Origin: Gemmatimonadetes bacterium T265 | GTDB taxonomy: Bacteria; Gemmatimonadota; Gemmatimonadetes; Gemmatimonadales; Gemmatimonadaceae | Direction: 5' to 3' | Assembly (NCBI GenBank): GCA_019973575.1 | Contig: BPUI01000002.1 | Location: 744,001-808,000 of the forward strand | DNA length: 64,000 nt | Shown here: positions 33,249 through 52,569 of the stretch, piece after piece | Numbering within the stretch: position 1 is the stretch's first letter | Layout: every line of letters starts with the position of its first letter | Program-made: the position numbers and the translations under genes | The notes under the pieces: generated by a model | The model's input: the letters and a program-made list of their open reading frames with translations, nothing else | What the model was told of the DNA's origin: nothing | Database searches by the model: none

Positions 33249-34037
33249 GTGCAGCTTGCCGTGGCCGCCCGTACGGACGTCGGACGCGTCCGTAGCGGGA
33301 ACGAAGACAGTCTCTACGCCGACGCCACGCCCCACCGCGGGCTGTTCATCGTGGCCGACGGTATGGGCGGCCACGCCGCGGGCGAGGTCGCGAGCGCGAT
33401 GGCGGTGCAGATCATTGCCCGGGAGCTCGCCGCGCTCGCCGCGGCCGACGACGCGGACGCGACGGGGCGGATGGCGGCCGCGCTCGTCACCGCGAACCGG
33501 GCAATCCACGAACGCACCGAGCGCGAGTCCGACAAGCAGGGCATGGGGACGACCGCGTCGGTGCTCGCGGTCTCGGACAGCGGCTACCTCATCGGCCAGG
33601 TCGGCGACTCGCGCGTCTACCTGCTGCGCGACGGCGCGCTCCGCCAGCTGACCCGCGACCACTCGTACGTGCAGGAGCAGGTCGACGCCGGGCTGCTCTC
33701 GCCCGAGCAGGCGCGGTACCACCCGTACAGCAACGTGATCACGCGCTGCATCGGCGCGAACGGCAAGGTCGACCCCGACGTGTTCACGGGCGAGGTCGCC
33801 CCCGGCGACGTCTTCCTCATCGCGAGCGACGGGCTCACGGGGATGGTCGACGACCGGCGCCTGCAGCAGCTCCTCTCGTCCCGCGCCGCGCCCGCGCGCG
33901 TGGTCGACGCGCTGATCGCCGAAGCCAACGGGCGCGGCGGGTTGGACAACATCACGGCGATCATCGTCCAGGTCGTCGCGGCCGGCAACGGCGCGGCCGC
34001 GGGCGGGGCGGTGGCGGGCGGCGCCGGGCGTGGCTGA
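33249..34037 (+). CDS. PP2C-family Ser/Thr protein phosphatase (Stp/PrpC type)
   Basis: 262 residues, GTG start. The metal-coordinating aspartates are all present: GNEDSLYA (Glu19, Asp20), ADGMGGHAAGE (Asp37), GDSRVYLLRDG, ASDGLTGMVDD and GLDNITAIIVQV. The bacterial Stp/PrpC phosphatases antagonise Hanks-type Ser/Thr kinases; no kinase gene is adjacent. The C-terminal tail is Gly/Ala-rich. A short gene overlaps the 3' end by 8 bases. Confidence 0.93.
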   Translation: MQLAVAARTDVGRVRSGNEDSLYADATPHRGLFIVADGMGGHAAGEVASAMAVQIIARELAALAAADDADATGRMAAALVTANRAIHERTERESDKQGMGTTASVLAVSDSGYLIGQVGDSRVYLLRDGALRQLTRDHSYVQEQVDAGLLSPEQARYHPYSNVITRCIGANGKVDPDVFTGEVAPGDVFLIASDGLTGMVDDRRLQQLLSSRAAPARVVDALIAEANGRGGLDNITAIIVQVVAAGNGAAAGGAVAGGAGRG

Positions 34038-48184: not shown

Positions 48185-49423
48185 TCACGCCGCGAGCGCC
48201 TGGTCGACGTCCGCGATCAGGTCCGCCGCGTCCTCGACGCCGACGCTGACGCGGAGGAACCCGTCCGGGATGCCGATCGCGGCGCGCTCCTCGCTCGTCA
48301 TCCCCACGTGCGACGTGTACCGCGGCTCGATGACGAGCGAGTCGACCCCGCCGAGCGACGTCGCGTGCGTGATGAGCTTGAGCGCGCGCAGGAACCGGTC
48401 GGCCGCCGGCGCGCCGCCGGCGAGCTCGATCGCGAGCATCCCGCCGAACCCGTCGAGCGTCTCGGCCGCGAGCCGATGGTCGGGGTGCGACCCGAGCCCG
48501 GGGTAGTGCACCCGCGCGACCGCGGGCTGCCGCGCGCACCACTCGGCGAGGGCCATCGCGTTCGCGTTCTGGCGCTCGACGCGCACGCCGAGCGTCTTGA
48601 GGCCGCGCTCGAGGAGCCAGCAGGCGAACGGGTCGGGCGCCTGGCCCCAGAGCACCATTTTCTGCCGCACCTCGCCCACGTAGGCCGCCGAGCCGACGAC
48701 CACGCCGCTCAAGACGTCGTGGTGCCCGTTGAGGTACTTCGTGGCCGAGTGGATCACGACGTCCGCGCCGTGGGCGAGCGGGCGGAAGTTGATCGGGCTC
48801 GCGAAGGTCGAGTCGACGACGAGCGCGACGCCGAGTTCGCGCGTGAGCTGGCTGAGCGAGCGCATGTCGACGACGCGCGTCGTCGGGTTCACCGGCGACT
48901 CGACGAACACCGCGCGCGTGTTCGGCCGAAGCGCGTTGCGCCACCCGCGCGATCGCGTCGGCTCGACGAACGTCGTGCGGATGCCTAACGACGCGAACTC
49001 CTCCGCGAACAGCGCGCGCGTGCCGCCGTAAATCCAGGCGCTCGACACGAGGTGGTCGCCGGGGCGGAGCAGGGCGAGGAGCGCGCACGCCGTCGCGCCG
49101 ATCCCGCTCGCGAGCACGAGCGCGGCCTCGCCGCCCTCGAGCAGCGCGAGCCGCTCCTGCACGCGCTCCGCGTTCGGCGTGTTGCCGTAGCGCGTGTAGC
49201 GCACCCCGTCGCCCGTGCCGAACGGCTGCGTGAAGTTGACCGACTGCACGAGCGGCGCGACGACCGGGCTGGGCTCCGCGTACGGGTCCGCAGTCCCCTC
49301 GCTCGACGGACGGCCGAACGCGCGCGCGCCGTGTAGGGCGACCGTCGAGAGGCCCGGGCCCGCGACGTCGCGGACCACCGAACCCGGCGTGGCCGGCGCG
49401 CTCGCCGCCACGCGCTCACGCAT
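48185..49423 (-). CDS. metB: Cystathionine gamma-synthase/O-acylhomoserine sulfhydrylase (Cys/Met metabolism PLP enzyme)
   Basis: 412 residues of the Cys/Met-metabolism PLP family. PLP lysine in HSATKYLNGH (Lys229), YTRYGNTPNAERVQERLALL, SSAWIYGGTRALF, and PVNPTTRVVDMRSL. It uses an activated homoserine or cystathionine; family members include MetB, MetC, MetY and MdeA, and the sequence does not separate them securely. The start overlaps the upstream small gene by 8 bases. Confidence 0.87.
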   Translation of the reverse strand: MRERVAASAPATPGSVVRDVAGPGLSTVALHGARAFGRPSSEGTADPYAEPSPVVAPLVQSVNFTQPFGTGDGVRYTRYGNTPNAERVQERLALLEGGEAALVLASGIGATACALLALLRPGDHLVSSAWIYGGTRALFAEEFASLGIRTTFVEPTRSRGWRNALRPNTRAVFVESPVNPTTRVVDMRSLSQLTRELGVALVVDSTFASPINFRPLAHGADVVIHSATKYLNGHHDVLSGVVVGSAAYVGEVRQKMVLWGQAPDPFACWLLERGLKTLGVRVERQNANAMALAEWCARQPAVARVHYPGLGSHPDHRLAAETLDGFGGMLAIELAGGAPAADRFLRALKLITHATSLGGVDSLVIEPRYTSHVGMTSEERAAIGIPDGFLRVSVGVEDAADLIADVDQALAA

Positions 49424-49736
49424 AGGGCCCGACGTCGGGCGGCGCGTCGAGGTCGGGCTTCGTCACGTGGACGATCTCCGACGGCGCGACCCCGGCGATG
49501 TCGCGCACGACCACCGACCCGCGCGGCAGCCCGTCGTCGATCGCGAGCGTCGCGAATTGCTGCCCGCGCGGCCCCTCGACGATCACGAGCTCGCCATCGG
49601 CGGCCATGCGCGCGCGCGCCTCGTTCGCGTTCATGCGGATTTGCGGGCCGCGCTCCGGGTCGGCGCGACGGGTGGCGATGTAGCCGTCGACGCGCAGCGG
49701 GCGCGAACTCTGGGGACGTCGGTACAGGGGACTCAT
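49416..49736 (-). CDS. Small protein with a molybdopterin-dinucleotide-binding-like (double-psi barrel) domain (tentative)
   Basis: 106 residues from the ATG at 49736. The central sequence MNANEARARMAADGELVIVE, then GPRGQQFATLAIDDGLPRG, follows the pattern of the C-terminal double-psi beta-barrel that binds molybdopterin dinucleotide (NPxDAxxxGIxDGDxVxVxSxRG). Here it stands alone with no molybdoenzyme, and the residues usually binding cofactor cannot be confirmed. The stop overlaps metB by 8 bases, so translation is coupled. The fold match is by pattern only; it may be a distinct barrel protein. Confidence 0.55.
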   Translation of the reverse strand: MSPLYRRPQSSRPLRVDGYIATRRADPERGPQIRMNANEARARMAADGELVIVEGPRGQQFATLAIDDGLPRGSVVVRDIAGVAPSEIVHVTKPDLDAPPDVGPYA

Positions 49737-49753: not shown

Positions 49754-50386
49754 TCAATCGCGGGCAGGGAGCCCGACGGGAAGCCAGCCGCCGCCAGCGG
49801 CCGGCATCACGAGGCGGCGCGCGGCGAGCCGGGCGAGCACCGCCGCCGCGCGGTCGACCTCGCCGCCGGCCGCCGCGGCGAGCCGCGCCGCGTCGGCCGG
49901 CGCAACCGCGTGCAGCGCCTGCCACGCCGCGCGCTCCTCGGCCGGCACGTCGCCGACTAGGCGGACCTCGCCGTGGACGACGGCGACGATCGCGATCGCG
50001 TGCCGCTCGAGCACCGCTTCGACCGCGTCGAGGTGCCCGTCGCCGACGCCGCGGAACACGAAGTACGCGTCCGCCGTCGGGGCGACTCCGTCGTCAGCTC
50101 CGTCATCGGCCCCGGCGTCCACCGCCGCGCCGTCCAACGCCGCGCGCACATGCCGCAGCATCAGCTTCGCAACGATCTCGTCGGCGCACGAGAAGTCGAG
50201 CAGCGTGACCTCGGAGAAGTCGATCACGCTGACCACGGGCCCGGGCGCCCCCGGGGCGGCAGCATCCGCGATCGCACGCTCGATCTCGGCGCGCACGGCC
50301 GCACCGGTCGGACGGGTGACGAGATTCGAGTACAAGGCGCACACGGTACCTCGGAGCACCGTGCCCAGGTCGATGTGGTGGTGCAT
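49754..50386 (-). CDS. STAS-domain-like protein
   Basis: 210 residues from the ATG at 50386 (GGGGCC upstream; a GTG at 50413 is an alternative). Residues about 45-75 match a STAS/anti-sigma-factor-antagonist strand-helix: VVSVIDFSEVTLLDFSCADE IV-type sequence; a phosphorylatable serine or threonine could be the Ser in DFSCAD. The C-terminal half is helical and Ala-rich with a winged-helix-like end. It follows the ATPase-domain gene by 48 bases. The partner-switching role is inferred from the neighbour. Confidence 0.7.
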   Translation of the reverse strand: MHHHIDLGTVLRGTVCALYSNLVTRPTGAAVRAEIERAIADAAAPGAPGPVVSVIDFSEVTLLDFSCADEIVAKLMLRHVRAALDGAAVDAGADDGADDGVAPTADAYFVFRGVGDGHLDAVEAVLERHAIAIVAVVHGEVRLVGDVPAEERAAWQALHAVAPADAARLAAAAGGEVDRAAAVLARLAARRLVMPAAGGGWLPVGLPARD

Positions 50387-50434
50387 CAGGCCCCGCCCGA
50401 CGGCGCGGCGCACGCGACGGCGCTCACGCCCACG

Positions 50435-51412
50435 CTAGAGCAGCTCGAGTGGAGGCGCCGGTCGCGCGGCGGGAGCCGCGGTGGCGGCCGGCTTCGCGGA
50501 CGCGCGCCCCCCGCCGCCCGCGCCGCCGTCCGCGGGCACCGCCTGCGGGATCGTGATCTGCACCTGCGCGCCCGGGAACGGCGCCAGCCCCTCCCGGAGC
50601 GCGACGTCGTCGTCCCAGTCGGGCACGAGGGCGATGCGGGCCGTGCCGCTCCGCACCGCGAGCTTCCCCTGGAACTTGGTCACGAAGCTCCGAATCTGTG
50701 ACAGCCCTTGCCCGCGCCCCGATTCGCGGAACCGGCTCACGTTGCGCAGCACGCCCTCTTCGAGCGCCATCCCGTCGTCCCACCGATCGTTGCGCGGGCG
50801 CGCGACGTTCGACTCGAGCGAACGACGGAATCCGATTCCCGCGTCGCACACCGCGATCACGACGACCCGGCGGCCGAGCCGCTGCTTCCACGTGTAACTC
50901 TGGACCGCGACCCAGCCGTCGCGTCCCGCGTGCTCGGTCACGTTCTGGCACGCCTCGGACAGCGTCATCGAGAACCGCATCGTCGAGCGCGGGTCGAGCC
51001 CGAGTCCGTCGCGCAGGATCGCCGTCGCCCGCTCCTGGATGCGCCCGACGATCTCGTGCACGTCGTTCGCGATCGTGATGCGCGTGATGCCGAGCAGCAC
51101 GTTCGACTCGGCCGGCGCGCGCCCGCGCGGCACGGCGCGCGTGAAGTCGTACAGCTCCTCCGCGTGCGCAAAGAACCCCGTCCGCGCCCAGTACGAAAGC
51201 GTGTCCTCCGCCTCGGGCGGCGCGAAGCTCGGCCGCACCTCGCGCGACTGCGCCAGCGCGAGCAGCGCCGTCAACCCGTACGGCGACGCCCAGCGTGCGT
51301 GCCGCGCGTCGACCAACACCTTCGCGTCGGCGGGCGCGTCGGCGAGCTTCGCCGCGACCTGCTCGAAGGTGACGTCGTCGAGCGACGACGGGATCGGGAC
51401 GACGGCCGTCAA
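50435..51412 (-). CDS. GHKL ATPase-domain protein with N-terminal STAS-like segment (partner-switch kinase candidate)
   Basis: 325 residues; the open start is a TTG. Residues 1-95 contain a STAS-like helix-strand pattern (KVLVDARHARWASPYGLTAL). About 120-280 is a GHKL ATPase: N box SEACQNVTEHA (Glu153, Asn157), G1 CDAGIGF (Asp190, Gly192) and G2 ESGRGQGLSQI. This combination resembles the anti-sigma/serine kinases of partner-switching systems, with a STAS protein encoded just downstream. No sigma factor or phosphatase is adjacent. The last 30 residues are low-complexity. Confidence 0.78.
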   Translation of the reverse strand: MTAVVPIPSSLDDVTFEQVAAKLADAPADAKVLVDARHARWASPYGLTALLALAQSREVRPSFAPPEAEDTLSYWARTGFFAHAEELYDFTRAVPRGRAPAESNVLLGITRITIANDVHEIVGRIQERATAILRDGLGLDPRSTMRFSMTLSEACQNVTEHAGRDGWVAVQSYTWKQRLGRRVVVIAVCDAGIGFRRSLESNVARPRNDRWDDGMALEEGVLRNVSRFRESGRGQGLSQIRSFVTKFQGKLAVRSGTARIALVPDWDDDVALREGLAPFPGAQVQITIPQAVPADGGAGGGGRASAKPAATAAPAARPAPPLELL

Positions 51413-51451: not shown

Positions 51452-51518
51452 GTCATCCCGAGCGCAGCTAGGAATCGGTGGGCCTGGCGGAGCGATCCTT
51501 CGCTGCGCTCGGGACGAC
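51452..51518. repeat. Imperfect inverted repeat of the GTCATCC(T/C)GAGCGCAGC family
   Basis: GTCATCCCGAGCGCAGC (51452-51468) pairs with GCTGCGCTCGGGACGAC (51502-51518) with one mismatch; the inner arms (TAGGAATCG / CGATCCTT) are less well paired. It lies between the pfkB-type gene and the ATPase-domain gene and is a relative of the 18534-18635 element. Confidence 0.8.
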
Positions 51519-51543: not shown

Positions 51544-52569
51544 TCAGGCGAGGCCGATCTCGCCCCGCAGATGCGCCGCGAGCCCACTCGCGCCGCGGTG
51601 CGTGAGGTTCCGCCCGGCGGCGCGGTGCGCGGCGACGATCGCGTCGTCCAAGGTATCACCCGCGAGCAGACGCGAGAAATGGGTCGCCCCCCACACGTCC
51701 CCGCACCCCGTCGGGTCGCCGCCGTCCGTCACCGGCACGCGCTCCGCCGCGATCAACGCCGTCCGGAGCGGCCCCGGCGCTCCACCGCCGACGCCGGTCA
51801 CGATCGCCGCCCGCGCGTCCGCCCGCGCCGGCCCGCCCGCGAGCGCCACCACACCGTCCTCGCGGCGGAGCCCGTCGTAGTCACCACGCGCGAAGTACAC
51901 CGCGCCGCGCGGCCCCATCGTCACGTTCAGGCAGCGCACGCCGTTGCCGAGCGCCGTCGCCGCGAGCGCCATCGGGTCGGGCGCCATCATCGCCAACTCG
52001 TCCTCGTTCACCTGCACCAGGTCGAAGCAACGGCACCACGCCGCCACGTCCGGCAGCGGGCGCGCCGTCCGCAGCCCGCCCGGTTGGACCGCGAGCGTGA
52101 GCGAGTGCAGGTCGCCGTAGATGATGCCCTTGAAGTGCTGCCGCAGTAGCTGCGTCGTCTCGAGGTCGAGTTCGAACCCCGAAATAAAGTTGACGTAGAG
52201 CGCGTCCAGCCCTTCCACGAGCGGGCGCATGCCGAGCCACGTCCACCCCGGCACGCCGCCGCGCAGCACCTCGCTCCGCCGCTCGTTCGAGTAGTAGAAC
52301 AGCTCGACGCGGTTGTTCGGGTACGGCACCTCGACGAGCGCCGCGTCCGGCGCCGCGCGGCGGAGCGTGTGCAGGTACCCGTCCGCCCGCGCCCGCAAGT
52401 CGTCCCCGACCTTGATGACGGGGACGATCTCCCAGTCGGGCGGCAGCGCCGCGTCGAGCGCGCCGAGCGCGTAAGTGATCCCGCCCCACTCCTCGACGGG
52501 CGCCGCGCGCACGTCGCGCCCGTGGATCACGTCCCAGACGAACGTGCCGATCACGCCGAGCCGCGGCAC
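51544..52569 (-). CDS. PfkB-family carbohydrate kinase
   Basis: 341 residues, GTG start. The PfkB signature 2 and catalytic base are in DPTGCGDVWGATHFSRLL (Asp291), with N-terminal GVIGTFVWDVI and substrate-binding IVPVIKVGDDL. It phosphorylates a sugar, nucleoside or similar compound with ATP; the substrate is not identifiable. A GCCTAAC heptamer directly precedes the start codon. Upstream is a glycosyltransferase gene of the same strand (42 bases apart). Confidence 0.87.
   Translation of the reverse strand: MPRLGVIGTFVWDVIHGRDVRAAPVEEWGGITYALGALDAALPPDWEIVPVIKVGDDLRARADGYLHTLRRAAPDAALVEVPYPNNRVELFYYSNERRSEVLRGGVPGWTWLGMRPLVEGLDALYVNFISGFELDLETTQLLRQHFKGIIYGDLHSLTLAVQPGGLRTARPLPDVAAWCRCFDLVQVNEDELAMMAPDPMALAATALGNGVRCLNVTMGPRGAVYFARGDYDGLRREDGVVALAGGPARADARAAIVTGVGGGAPGPLRTALIAAERVPVTDGGDPTGCGDVWGATHFSRLLAGDTLDDAIVAAHRAAGRNLTHRGASGLAAHLRGEIGLA

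Follow-up and report, generated by a model that had tools for sequence, protein, structure and literature searches.

How does a kinase-like ATPase that is encoded together with a STAS-like protein operate if no sigma factor lies beside the two? This question is raised by two genes on the minus strand at positions 49754-51412 of a 64,000-nucleotide stretch of the genome of Gemmatimonadetes bacterium T265 (contig BPUI01000002.1, positions 744,001 to 808,000; hereafter the window). A reading of the window from its sequence alone had proposed an ATPase/STAS pair here, with the lack of a sigma factor as its odd feature, and both genes are indeed present. We find that the pair is a new and widely inherited variant whose closest known system is CapK-CapS. 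The first protein is homologous to CapK and the second, termed “STASb” here, to CapS; the predicted folds agree, the catalytic and acceptor residues are retained, and the two genes are inherited as a pair in nearly every genome sampled from the class. We put at roughly 65% the probability that the pair is a two-protein kinase-substrate switch of the CapK-CapS/VapK-VapS kind.

Both proteins are related to CapK and CapS

The first protein is a GHKL ATPase, as the sequence-only reading had it. HATPase_c_2 matches the window protein at 28.1 bits, just above the Pfam cut-off of 27.4, and HATPase_c and HATPase_c_2 both match all 38 aligned ATPase sequences at E<=1. The AlphaFold2 model has a mean predicted local distance difference test score (pLDDT) of 84.9, and its residues 102-293 come closest to SpoIIAB (1l0o, 1til; VIA Z 14.2, root-mean-square deviation (rmsd) 2.4-2.5 over 133-135 residues), followed at lower Z by RsbW (11.7), UsfX (11.5) and the first histidine kinase (9.7). 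The STAS-like N-terminal half that had been proposed is likewise apparent in the model, where residues 1-93 align with 1vc1 (VIA Z 9.3, rmsd 2.5, 88 residues) and with the anti-sigma-factor antagonist 4hyl (Z 8.8). Because middling Z values of this kind may reflect a common arrangement, the STAS assignment leans also on profile comparison; STAS_2 matches 4 of the 38 ATPase sequences at E<=1 (best E 0.011).

STASb, whose model has a mean pLDDT of 92.2, is also STAS-like, in agreement with the earlier proposal. Residues 1-142 superimpose on sulfate transporter chain 9ias (VIA Z 8.7, rmsd 2.7, 98 residues), over a portion that we take to be its STAS domain, and hhalign of the STAS-like domain against the DUF4325 region of single-chain fused proteins gives a score of 57.3 (reversed control, 10.0). 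Since a Foldseek search with the STASb model returned no match at E<=0.001, the assignment rests on these two comparisons. No significant hhalign match was obtained for either STAS domain against single RsbV, RsbR or RsbS sequences (probability 0.1-2.7), and no credible PDB sequence match was found for the window STASb alone. At the lax limit of E<=1, at which 42 families in all are matched across 38 aligned STASb sequences, DUF4325 is found in 12 (best E 0.0012), TrmB in 10, MarR_2 in seven and STAS_2 in six. The C-terminal end of STASb (residues ~145-208) is a predicted winged helix that the sequence-only reading had missed, with VIA Z values of up to 10.3 over ~60 residues to MarR-type and other winged helices.

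This combination of domains resembles that of CapK, a kinase composed of helix-turn-helix (HTH), STAS and GHKL domains, and CapS, a STAS-winged-helix protein (Chambers et al., EMBO J 2026; PMC13373217). According to that paper, CapK is stimulated by single-stranded DNA (ssDNA) and phosphorylates CapS at Ser54; the dimer of CapS then dissociates, and the downstream immune operon is derepressed. Structures 9Z71-9Z73 represent CapS. hhalign of the ATPase profile against five CapKs gives a probability of 99.1 and a score of 133.9 over 270 columns (reversed control, 16.2), and the STASb profile against eight CapS homologues gives 96.3 and 64.3 over 150 columns (reversed control, 11.4). Taken domain by domain, the relationship is uneven. 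That to CapK is seen for the GHKL domain (probability 98.4, score 103.3) and the ATPase STAS domain (80.9, 40.0), and that to CapS more for the STASb winged helix (88.2, 36.1) than for the STASb STAS domain (49.5, 32.0). Among PDB sequences, CapS 9z71 is the second match of the STASb profile (E 0.0017, in an alignment that spans the last part of the STAS domain plus the winged helix), just behind an ArsR winged helix of the usual kind (E 0.0012). As in CapK-CapS, the kinase gene comes first and the gene for the STAS-winged-helix protein follows directly.

Catalytic and acceptor residues are retained

Residue counts given here refer to 56 sequences per protein, made up of 38 aligned rows from the order and 18 loci of other orders. 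With respect to the 40 order loci, L054, L058 and L063 are absent from the STASb alignment, and L029, L043 and L059 from that of the ATPase; L029 and L059 are truncated by contig ends, and L043 retains the W-A-S-P-Y-G and SEACQN motifs. Residue numbering in the known system was confirmed on the E. roggenkampii CapK/CapS pair (WP_001567866.1, WP_001567865.1) for W68, N218, K237, K239, S54, N145, K151 and G169-G170.

The GHKL catalytic motif of CapK is preserved in the ATPase, in which E153, N157, D190, G192, G194, R233, G234, Q235 and G236 are invariant (56/56) and G232 is kept in 55; N157 is the counterpart of CapK N218. STASb Ser66 aligns with the phosphorylated CapS Ser54 and is Ser in all 56 sequences, and its motif is also carried by the three loci outside this count. 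The model places Ser66 at the N terminus of helix 65-84, which is STAS helix 2. The preceding position, 65, lines up with the RsbV phosphoserine when the correspondence is read by eye from the common D-S-S-G pattern, and is occupied by F in 32 sequences, Y in 16, C in four, and W, I, L and V in one each. An interpretation based on the RsbV pattern, that the phosphosite has been lost, was dropped, as the CapS numbering puts the phosphoserine at the next residue, Ser66.

The STAS domain within the ATPase differs in this respect. Its position equivalent to the RsbV phosphoserine is Pro (P44) in 56/56, which makes this fused domain an improbable substrate for phosphorylation. The earlier suggestion that the ATPase combines kinase and STAS functions therefore holds for the presence of a fused STAS domain and not for that domain as the target of the kinase. 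A conserved aromatic residue in the same domain, W41 (Trp in 54/56), could be a contact for another ligand.

Conserved residues of this kind could also belong to an ATP-dependent scaffold that transfers no phosphate, such that the nucleotide state of the ATPase governs STASb binding and Ser66 serves as a structural helix cap. The place of Ser66 at the start of a helix fits this idea, as does the fact that none of the three SpoIIE-type phosphatase matches in the genome lies beside the pair. However, the aligned Ser54 of CapS is phosphorylated (PMC13373217), the kinase motifs are retained, and no phosphatase is annotated in the CapKS stretch examined either. We regard a scaffold of this type as quite unlikely.

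The pair belongs to the core of its class

Of 150 genomes sampled from the phylum, 142 are matched by the STASb profile and 141 by the ATPase profile, both genes being found in 141; with such frequencies the pair is not a product of chance. Eight genomes have neither gene. Another class accounts for six of them, which are all that were sampled from it, and the window's own class for the other two; in a further genome, G152, the match to the second gene is no more than a fragment (37 bits). This fragment aside, the top STASb-profile scores within the window's class lie between 124 and 274 bits. Within the order, the search gave matches in 57 of 59 genomes and 40 loci were fetched. Adjacency was examined in fetched loci, which had been chosen by a STAS or ATPase protein match, and the ATPase gene precedes the STASb gene on the same strand in 40/40 order loci and 18/18 core loci of other orders. 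The two genes overlap by 4 bp in 22/40 when starts are chosen automatically.

The surroundings are conserved as well. PfkB accompanies the pair in 38/40 order loci, a Cys/Met metabolism enzyme in 37/40 and an FtsE-like gene in 39/40; in other orders PfkB is found in 15/18 and the Cys/Met enzyme in 10/18. We read the pair as vertically inherited, class-level core genes. The proposal of an ATPase/STAS pair survives in its broader form, a kinase-like ATPase followed by a STAS protein, and conservation, synteny and the fusions found elsewhere (see below) support the view that the two are a functional pair.

Among 297 genomes from the phylum of a Thermoanaerobaculia record, for each of which no more than 11 candidates were scored, the STASb profile matches two (61 and 35 bits), and both matches (L259 in G469; L258 in G431) lie directly downstream of a kinase-like gene, in CapK-CapS-like pairs. 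The second protein of L259 can clearly be identified as a CapS (E 3.3e-27 against 9z71). Downstream open reading frames (ORFs) presumably encode proteins resembling those of ubiquitin pathways. A search of 72,556 plasmid records with the window ATPase gave a single match (28 percent identity, E 7e-4), in a record with an ATP-binding protein gene, then a CapS homologue, then multiubiquitin and ThiF-family genes. No plasmid match was found for STASb or for the CapS-like protein of L258, and no phage match for CapS.

Sensing and DNA-contact residues of CapKS are not retained

The similarity to CapK-CapS might extend to function in full. An ssDNA-activated ATPase would then phosphorylate a STASb repressor and lift repression of its own operon. 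Gene order, folds and the phosphoserine are the same in the two systems, and CapK K237 aligns with R178, which is Arg in 54/56. Other residues of CapK and CapS are not conserved here. The STAS and GHKL domains of CapK are predicted to form an ssDNA groove, as supported by the W68A mutant (PMC13373217). Unlike in CapK, the position of this ssDNA-stacking Trp68 is Trp, Phe or Tyr in 0/56 (S in 38, T in six, R and N in three each, H and V in two each, Q and E in one each), and that of K239 is Gly180 in 51/56. Unlike in CapS, the position of the DNA-contact residue K151 is never Lys (0/56) and is acidic in 34/56, with Ala185 in the window, and that of N145 is never Asn (0/56), with Arg179 in the window. 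The recognition helix has a mean charge of −0.6 here, calculated over 15 residues, versus +1 to +3 over 12 residues in eight CapS homologues.

The ATPase also differs from CapK in having no HTH. It has a conserved start at the STAS domain, with a 4-bp overlap with the upstream gene in 33/40 relatives. No convincing shared palindrome that might serve as an operator was found upstream of PfkB, the best being common to 4/39 loci; the maximum in 30 crude shuffles was 1-3, and the searched sequence is mostly coding. No immune gene was recognised beside the window pair, either among the four neighbours scanned with Pfam or by PADLOC on seven window proteins. The surroundings are of a housekeeping type, and the pair is core to its class, unlike CapK-CapS, an accessory regulator that mostly stands beside immune operons. 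In PMC13373217, an immune operon, known or predicted, is reported to follow 348 of the 443 capK loci, and so such adjacency is not universal for CapK either.

Because the HTH, the ssDNA-stacking Trp, the DNA-contact residues and an immune neighbourhood were each looked for and not found, we do not class the pair as CapKS, and we consider it unlikely that it operates as CapKS in full. Of two trees, the first could not be used owing to long RsbW branches (L194 was dropped for a stop in the translated stretch); the second separates fusions, CapK and the core, with support for the core of only 63/35, too low to fix their branching order. The pair probably does not sense ssDNA as CapK does, and its output is probably not CapS-type operator binding, judging from these alignments. 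With both the ssDNA-sensing and the DNA-contact residue sets lost, another signal and another output are probable. We infer that the pair works like CapK-CapS up to the phosphotransfer step.

VapKS and single-chain proteins carry the same kinase and STAS modules

A related toxin-antitoxin form, VapK-VapS-VapC, for which a VapS-VapC structure (9Z7O) exists, is described in PMC13373217. The window pair resembles VapK-VapS in its STAS partner and in its STAS-GHKL kinase, VapK being described there without mention of an HTH, and the DUF4325 profile finds VapS at E 2.3e-7. Unlike VapK-VapS-VapC, the window has no VapC/PIN gene among the four scanned neighbours or in the gene order followed, and unlike VapS, which has a short C-terminal region, STASb carries a winged helix.

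The same domains, in the same order, make up single-chain STAS-GHKL-DUF4325 proteins, nine of which were aligned at full length; one such chain of 417 aa, at positions 5850-7103 of L098, has STAS_2, HATPase and DUF4325 matches. The existence of such fusions supports a partnership of the ATPase and STASb. The window pair differs from these DUF4325 (PF14213) fusions in comprising two genes, in its extra winged helix, and in falling below the Pfam threshold. PF14213 gives no match over the cut-off in the window's genome and is over the cut-off in 18 of 200 phylum genomes, and the fusions are sporadic across many phyla. A scan of genome contigs kept 80 of 85 loci with relatives (L168-L247), from Pseudomonadota, Nitrospirota, Bacteroidota, Chloroflexota and others, and also from Gemmatimonadetes; the largest neighbour cluster, by a crude ORF comparison, holds six of the 80. 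In 41 genomes reached through fusion loci, the STASb profile matches 21, with a best score of 34.9 bits. The single-chain proteins are possibly self-contained CapKS/VapKS-like switches.

A sigma factor need not be part of the system

No sigma factor is adjacent to the pair, as had been stated, none being found among the four neighbours scanned with Pfam. The view of this as an oddity does not hold up. CapK-CapS, the closest known system, works without a sigma factor, so none is needed here. Moreover, the same genome has an RsbV-RsbW-PP2C-like locus (G000:C2:1115488-1117844; L153), whose RsbV-like protein has DSSG, and an RsbR-RsbS-RsbT-like locus (G000:C1:2278755-2281565; L154). The Rsb names of their genes are our own and rest in part on gene position. 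The ORFs listed beside either locus include no sigma factor when inspected by eye, and the lack of an adjacent one is therefore not special to the pair. PMC12826045 discusses uses of RsbW-like kinases that involve no sigma factor, and STAS proteins are reviewed in PMC8256260.

A canonical RsbW-RsbV partner switch could still act on a sigma factor encoded elsewhere. The pair is like SpoIIAB-SpoIIAA and RsbW-RsbV in having a GHKL domain nearest SpoIIAB and a STAS partner, and four sigma-70-type genes in the genome score 105-124 bits with the SigBFG model. None of these reaches the SigBFG cut-off of 234 bits, however, and nor does any other gene of the genome. STASb lacks the DSSG motif of RsbV, with F or Y mostly found at position 65, the pair has additional STAS and winged-helix domains, and the genome has Rsb-like loci of its own. 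These features make a canonical switch very unlikely.

A proposed phosphorylation switch

The preferred reading, a kinase-substrate switch of the CapK-CapS/VapK-VapS kind, leads to the following scheme. The first protein would be a SpoIIAB-like GHKL kinase with a STAS domain in cis that is devoid of the usual phosphosite and is probably a sensor or regulatory part. We infer that it phosphorylates STASb on Ser66, where STAS helix 2 begins. This would alter contacts of the STAS domain within a dimer or with a partner, and thus the activity of the attached winged helix. By analogy with VapC, the target of VapS, a protein target is more likely than a CapS-type DNA output. PfkB is a candidate target by position only. 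In a comparison of PfkB with PDB sequences, the two matches (E 0.22 and 0.36) were unusable.

A more specific proposal, which we offer tentatively and with the odds against it, is that the pair is a housekeeping branch of CapKS/VapKS fixed in the class. Such a branch would respond to a signal other than ssDNA. Through phosphorylation it would steer a protein target, for which the co-encoded sugar kinase is a possibility, with the winged helix turned into a protein-binding module. It would share with the immune regulators an ancestral sigma-free switch.

Several observations weigh against the preferred reading of a kinase-substrate switch. The window STASb alone has no match in Pfam, even at E<=10, or in NCBIfam, and its STAS domain taken alone matches CapS weakly, as noted above. 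Ser or Thr at the canonical RsbV phosphoserine position of STASb is found in 0/56. Even among the eight aligned CapS homologues, the S54 position is Ser in five, Cys in two and Thr in one. In other orders, the genes of three of the 18 pairs have an intervening stretch of about 0.36-1.3 kb. Finally, in 14 of the 142 phylum matches the STASb profile aligns no further than position 142 of 184, which falls before or early in the winged helix, and hence this domain is not kept everywhere; two loci with such short matches have no winged helix (L058) or a short remnant only (L063).

The CapS homologues that have Cys or Thr in place of S54 are from Acinetobacter and Pseudomonas plasmids (L264, L265 and L266). 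None of the genes annotated just upstream of them is called a kinase or an ATP-binding protein.

Genomic context

Coordinates of the pair, its domains and its neighbours are compiled in Table 1. The ATPase gene starts with TTG at 51412, where most relatives have ATG at the equivalent residue; for STASb, ATG at 50386 is a more likely start than GTG at 50413. The gap between the two genes is 48 nt.

Table 1. Features of the ATPase-STASb locus in window coordinates.
Feature	Coordinates	Strand	Basis or remark
STAS-GHKL kinase-like ATPase, CapK/VapK-like, without N-terminal HTH	50435..51412	(-)	325 aa
N-terminal STAS-fold domain of ATPase, residues 1-93	51134..51412	(-)	Predicted fold; phosphosite position is Pro44
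GHKL domain of ATPase, residues 102-293	50534..51109	(-)	SpoIIAB nearest
STASb, divergent DUF4325/STAS plus winged-helix protein, CapS-like	49754..50386	(-)	210 aa
STAS-like (DUF4325-type) domain of STASb, residues 1-145	49952..50386	(-)	Predicted fold and profile comparison
Winged-helix domain of STASb, residues 146-206	49769..49951	(-)	Predicted fold
Ser66 of STASb, equivalent of phosphorylated CapS Ser54	50189..50191	(-)	Alignment
PfkB-type kinase gene, most constant upstream neighbour	51544..52569	(-)	PF00294, 32.1 bits
Stand-alone Molydop_binding protein (106 aa), downstream, in 29/40 relatives	49416..49736	(-)	PF01568, 31.1 bits
Cys/Met metabolism pyridoxal phosphate (PLP) enzyme gene, conserved downstream neighbour	48185..49423	(-)	PF01053, 403.5 bits

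The four neighbours scanned with Pfam are the PfkB, GT9, Molydop_binding and Cys/Met enzyme genes, with GT9 directly preceding PfkB in the window. From their sequences, we take further genes of the locus to be LepA, FtsE, FtsX and an M23/EnvC-like gene. What is presumably the tail of a ROK-type sugar kinase-like coding sequence ends just before PfkB in L026, L028, L030 and L031. The PfkB and ATPase genes, which overlap by 4 bp in the 33 relatives noted above, are separated in the window by 131 nt. This gap contains an inverted repeat resembling repetitive extragenic palindromic (REP) elements at 51453-51517 (TCATCCCGAGCGCAGC and its partner, with one mismatch).

A PP2C gene at 33249-34037 of the window was considered as a phosphatase partner and set aside, as it is 16 kb away; we presume it to be of the general PrpC type from its sequence.

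The PADLOC scan of seven window proteins returned only a partial DrmA match for the ATPase and ABC-type matches for the FtsE-like protein. The ATPase (50438-51412) matches positions 103-249 of the 1750 in the DrmA (DISARM) model at E 9.2e-9, and CapK (L260:541-1647) matches positions 73-189 at E 8.5e-5. From these overlapping N-terminal matches, the DrmA model seems to include a region related to these GHKL kinases.

Significance

No published account of the Gemmatimonadetes pair was found in the literature searched, which was mostly non-subscription. The CapKS paper (PMC13373217) is the nearest, and “gemmatimon” does not occur in it. A partner switch without a sigma factor is explained by the relationship to CapK-CapS. 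The pair offers a natural comparison for finding the residues behind sensing, phosphorylation and output. CapK-CapS has been presented as an accessory system that regulates immune operons, and a syntenic relative is now seen in nearly every sampled genome of the class, which suggests that the kinase-STAS-winged-helix architecture serves also as a core cell function.

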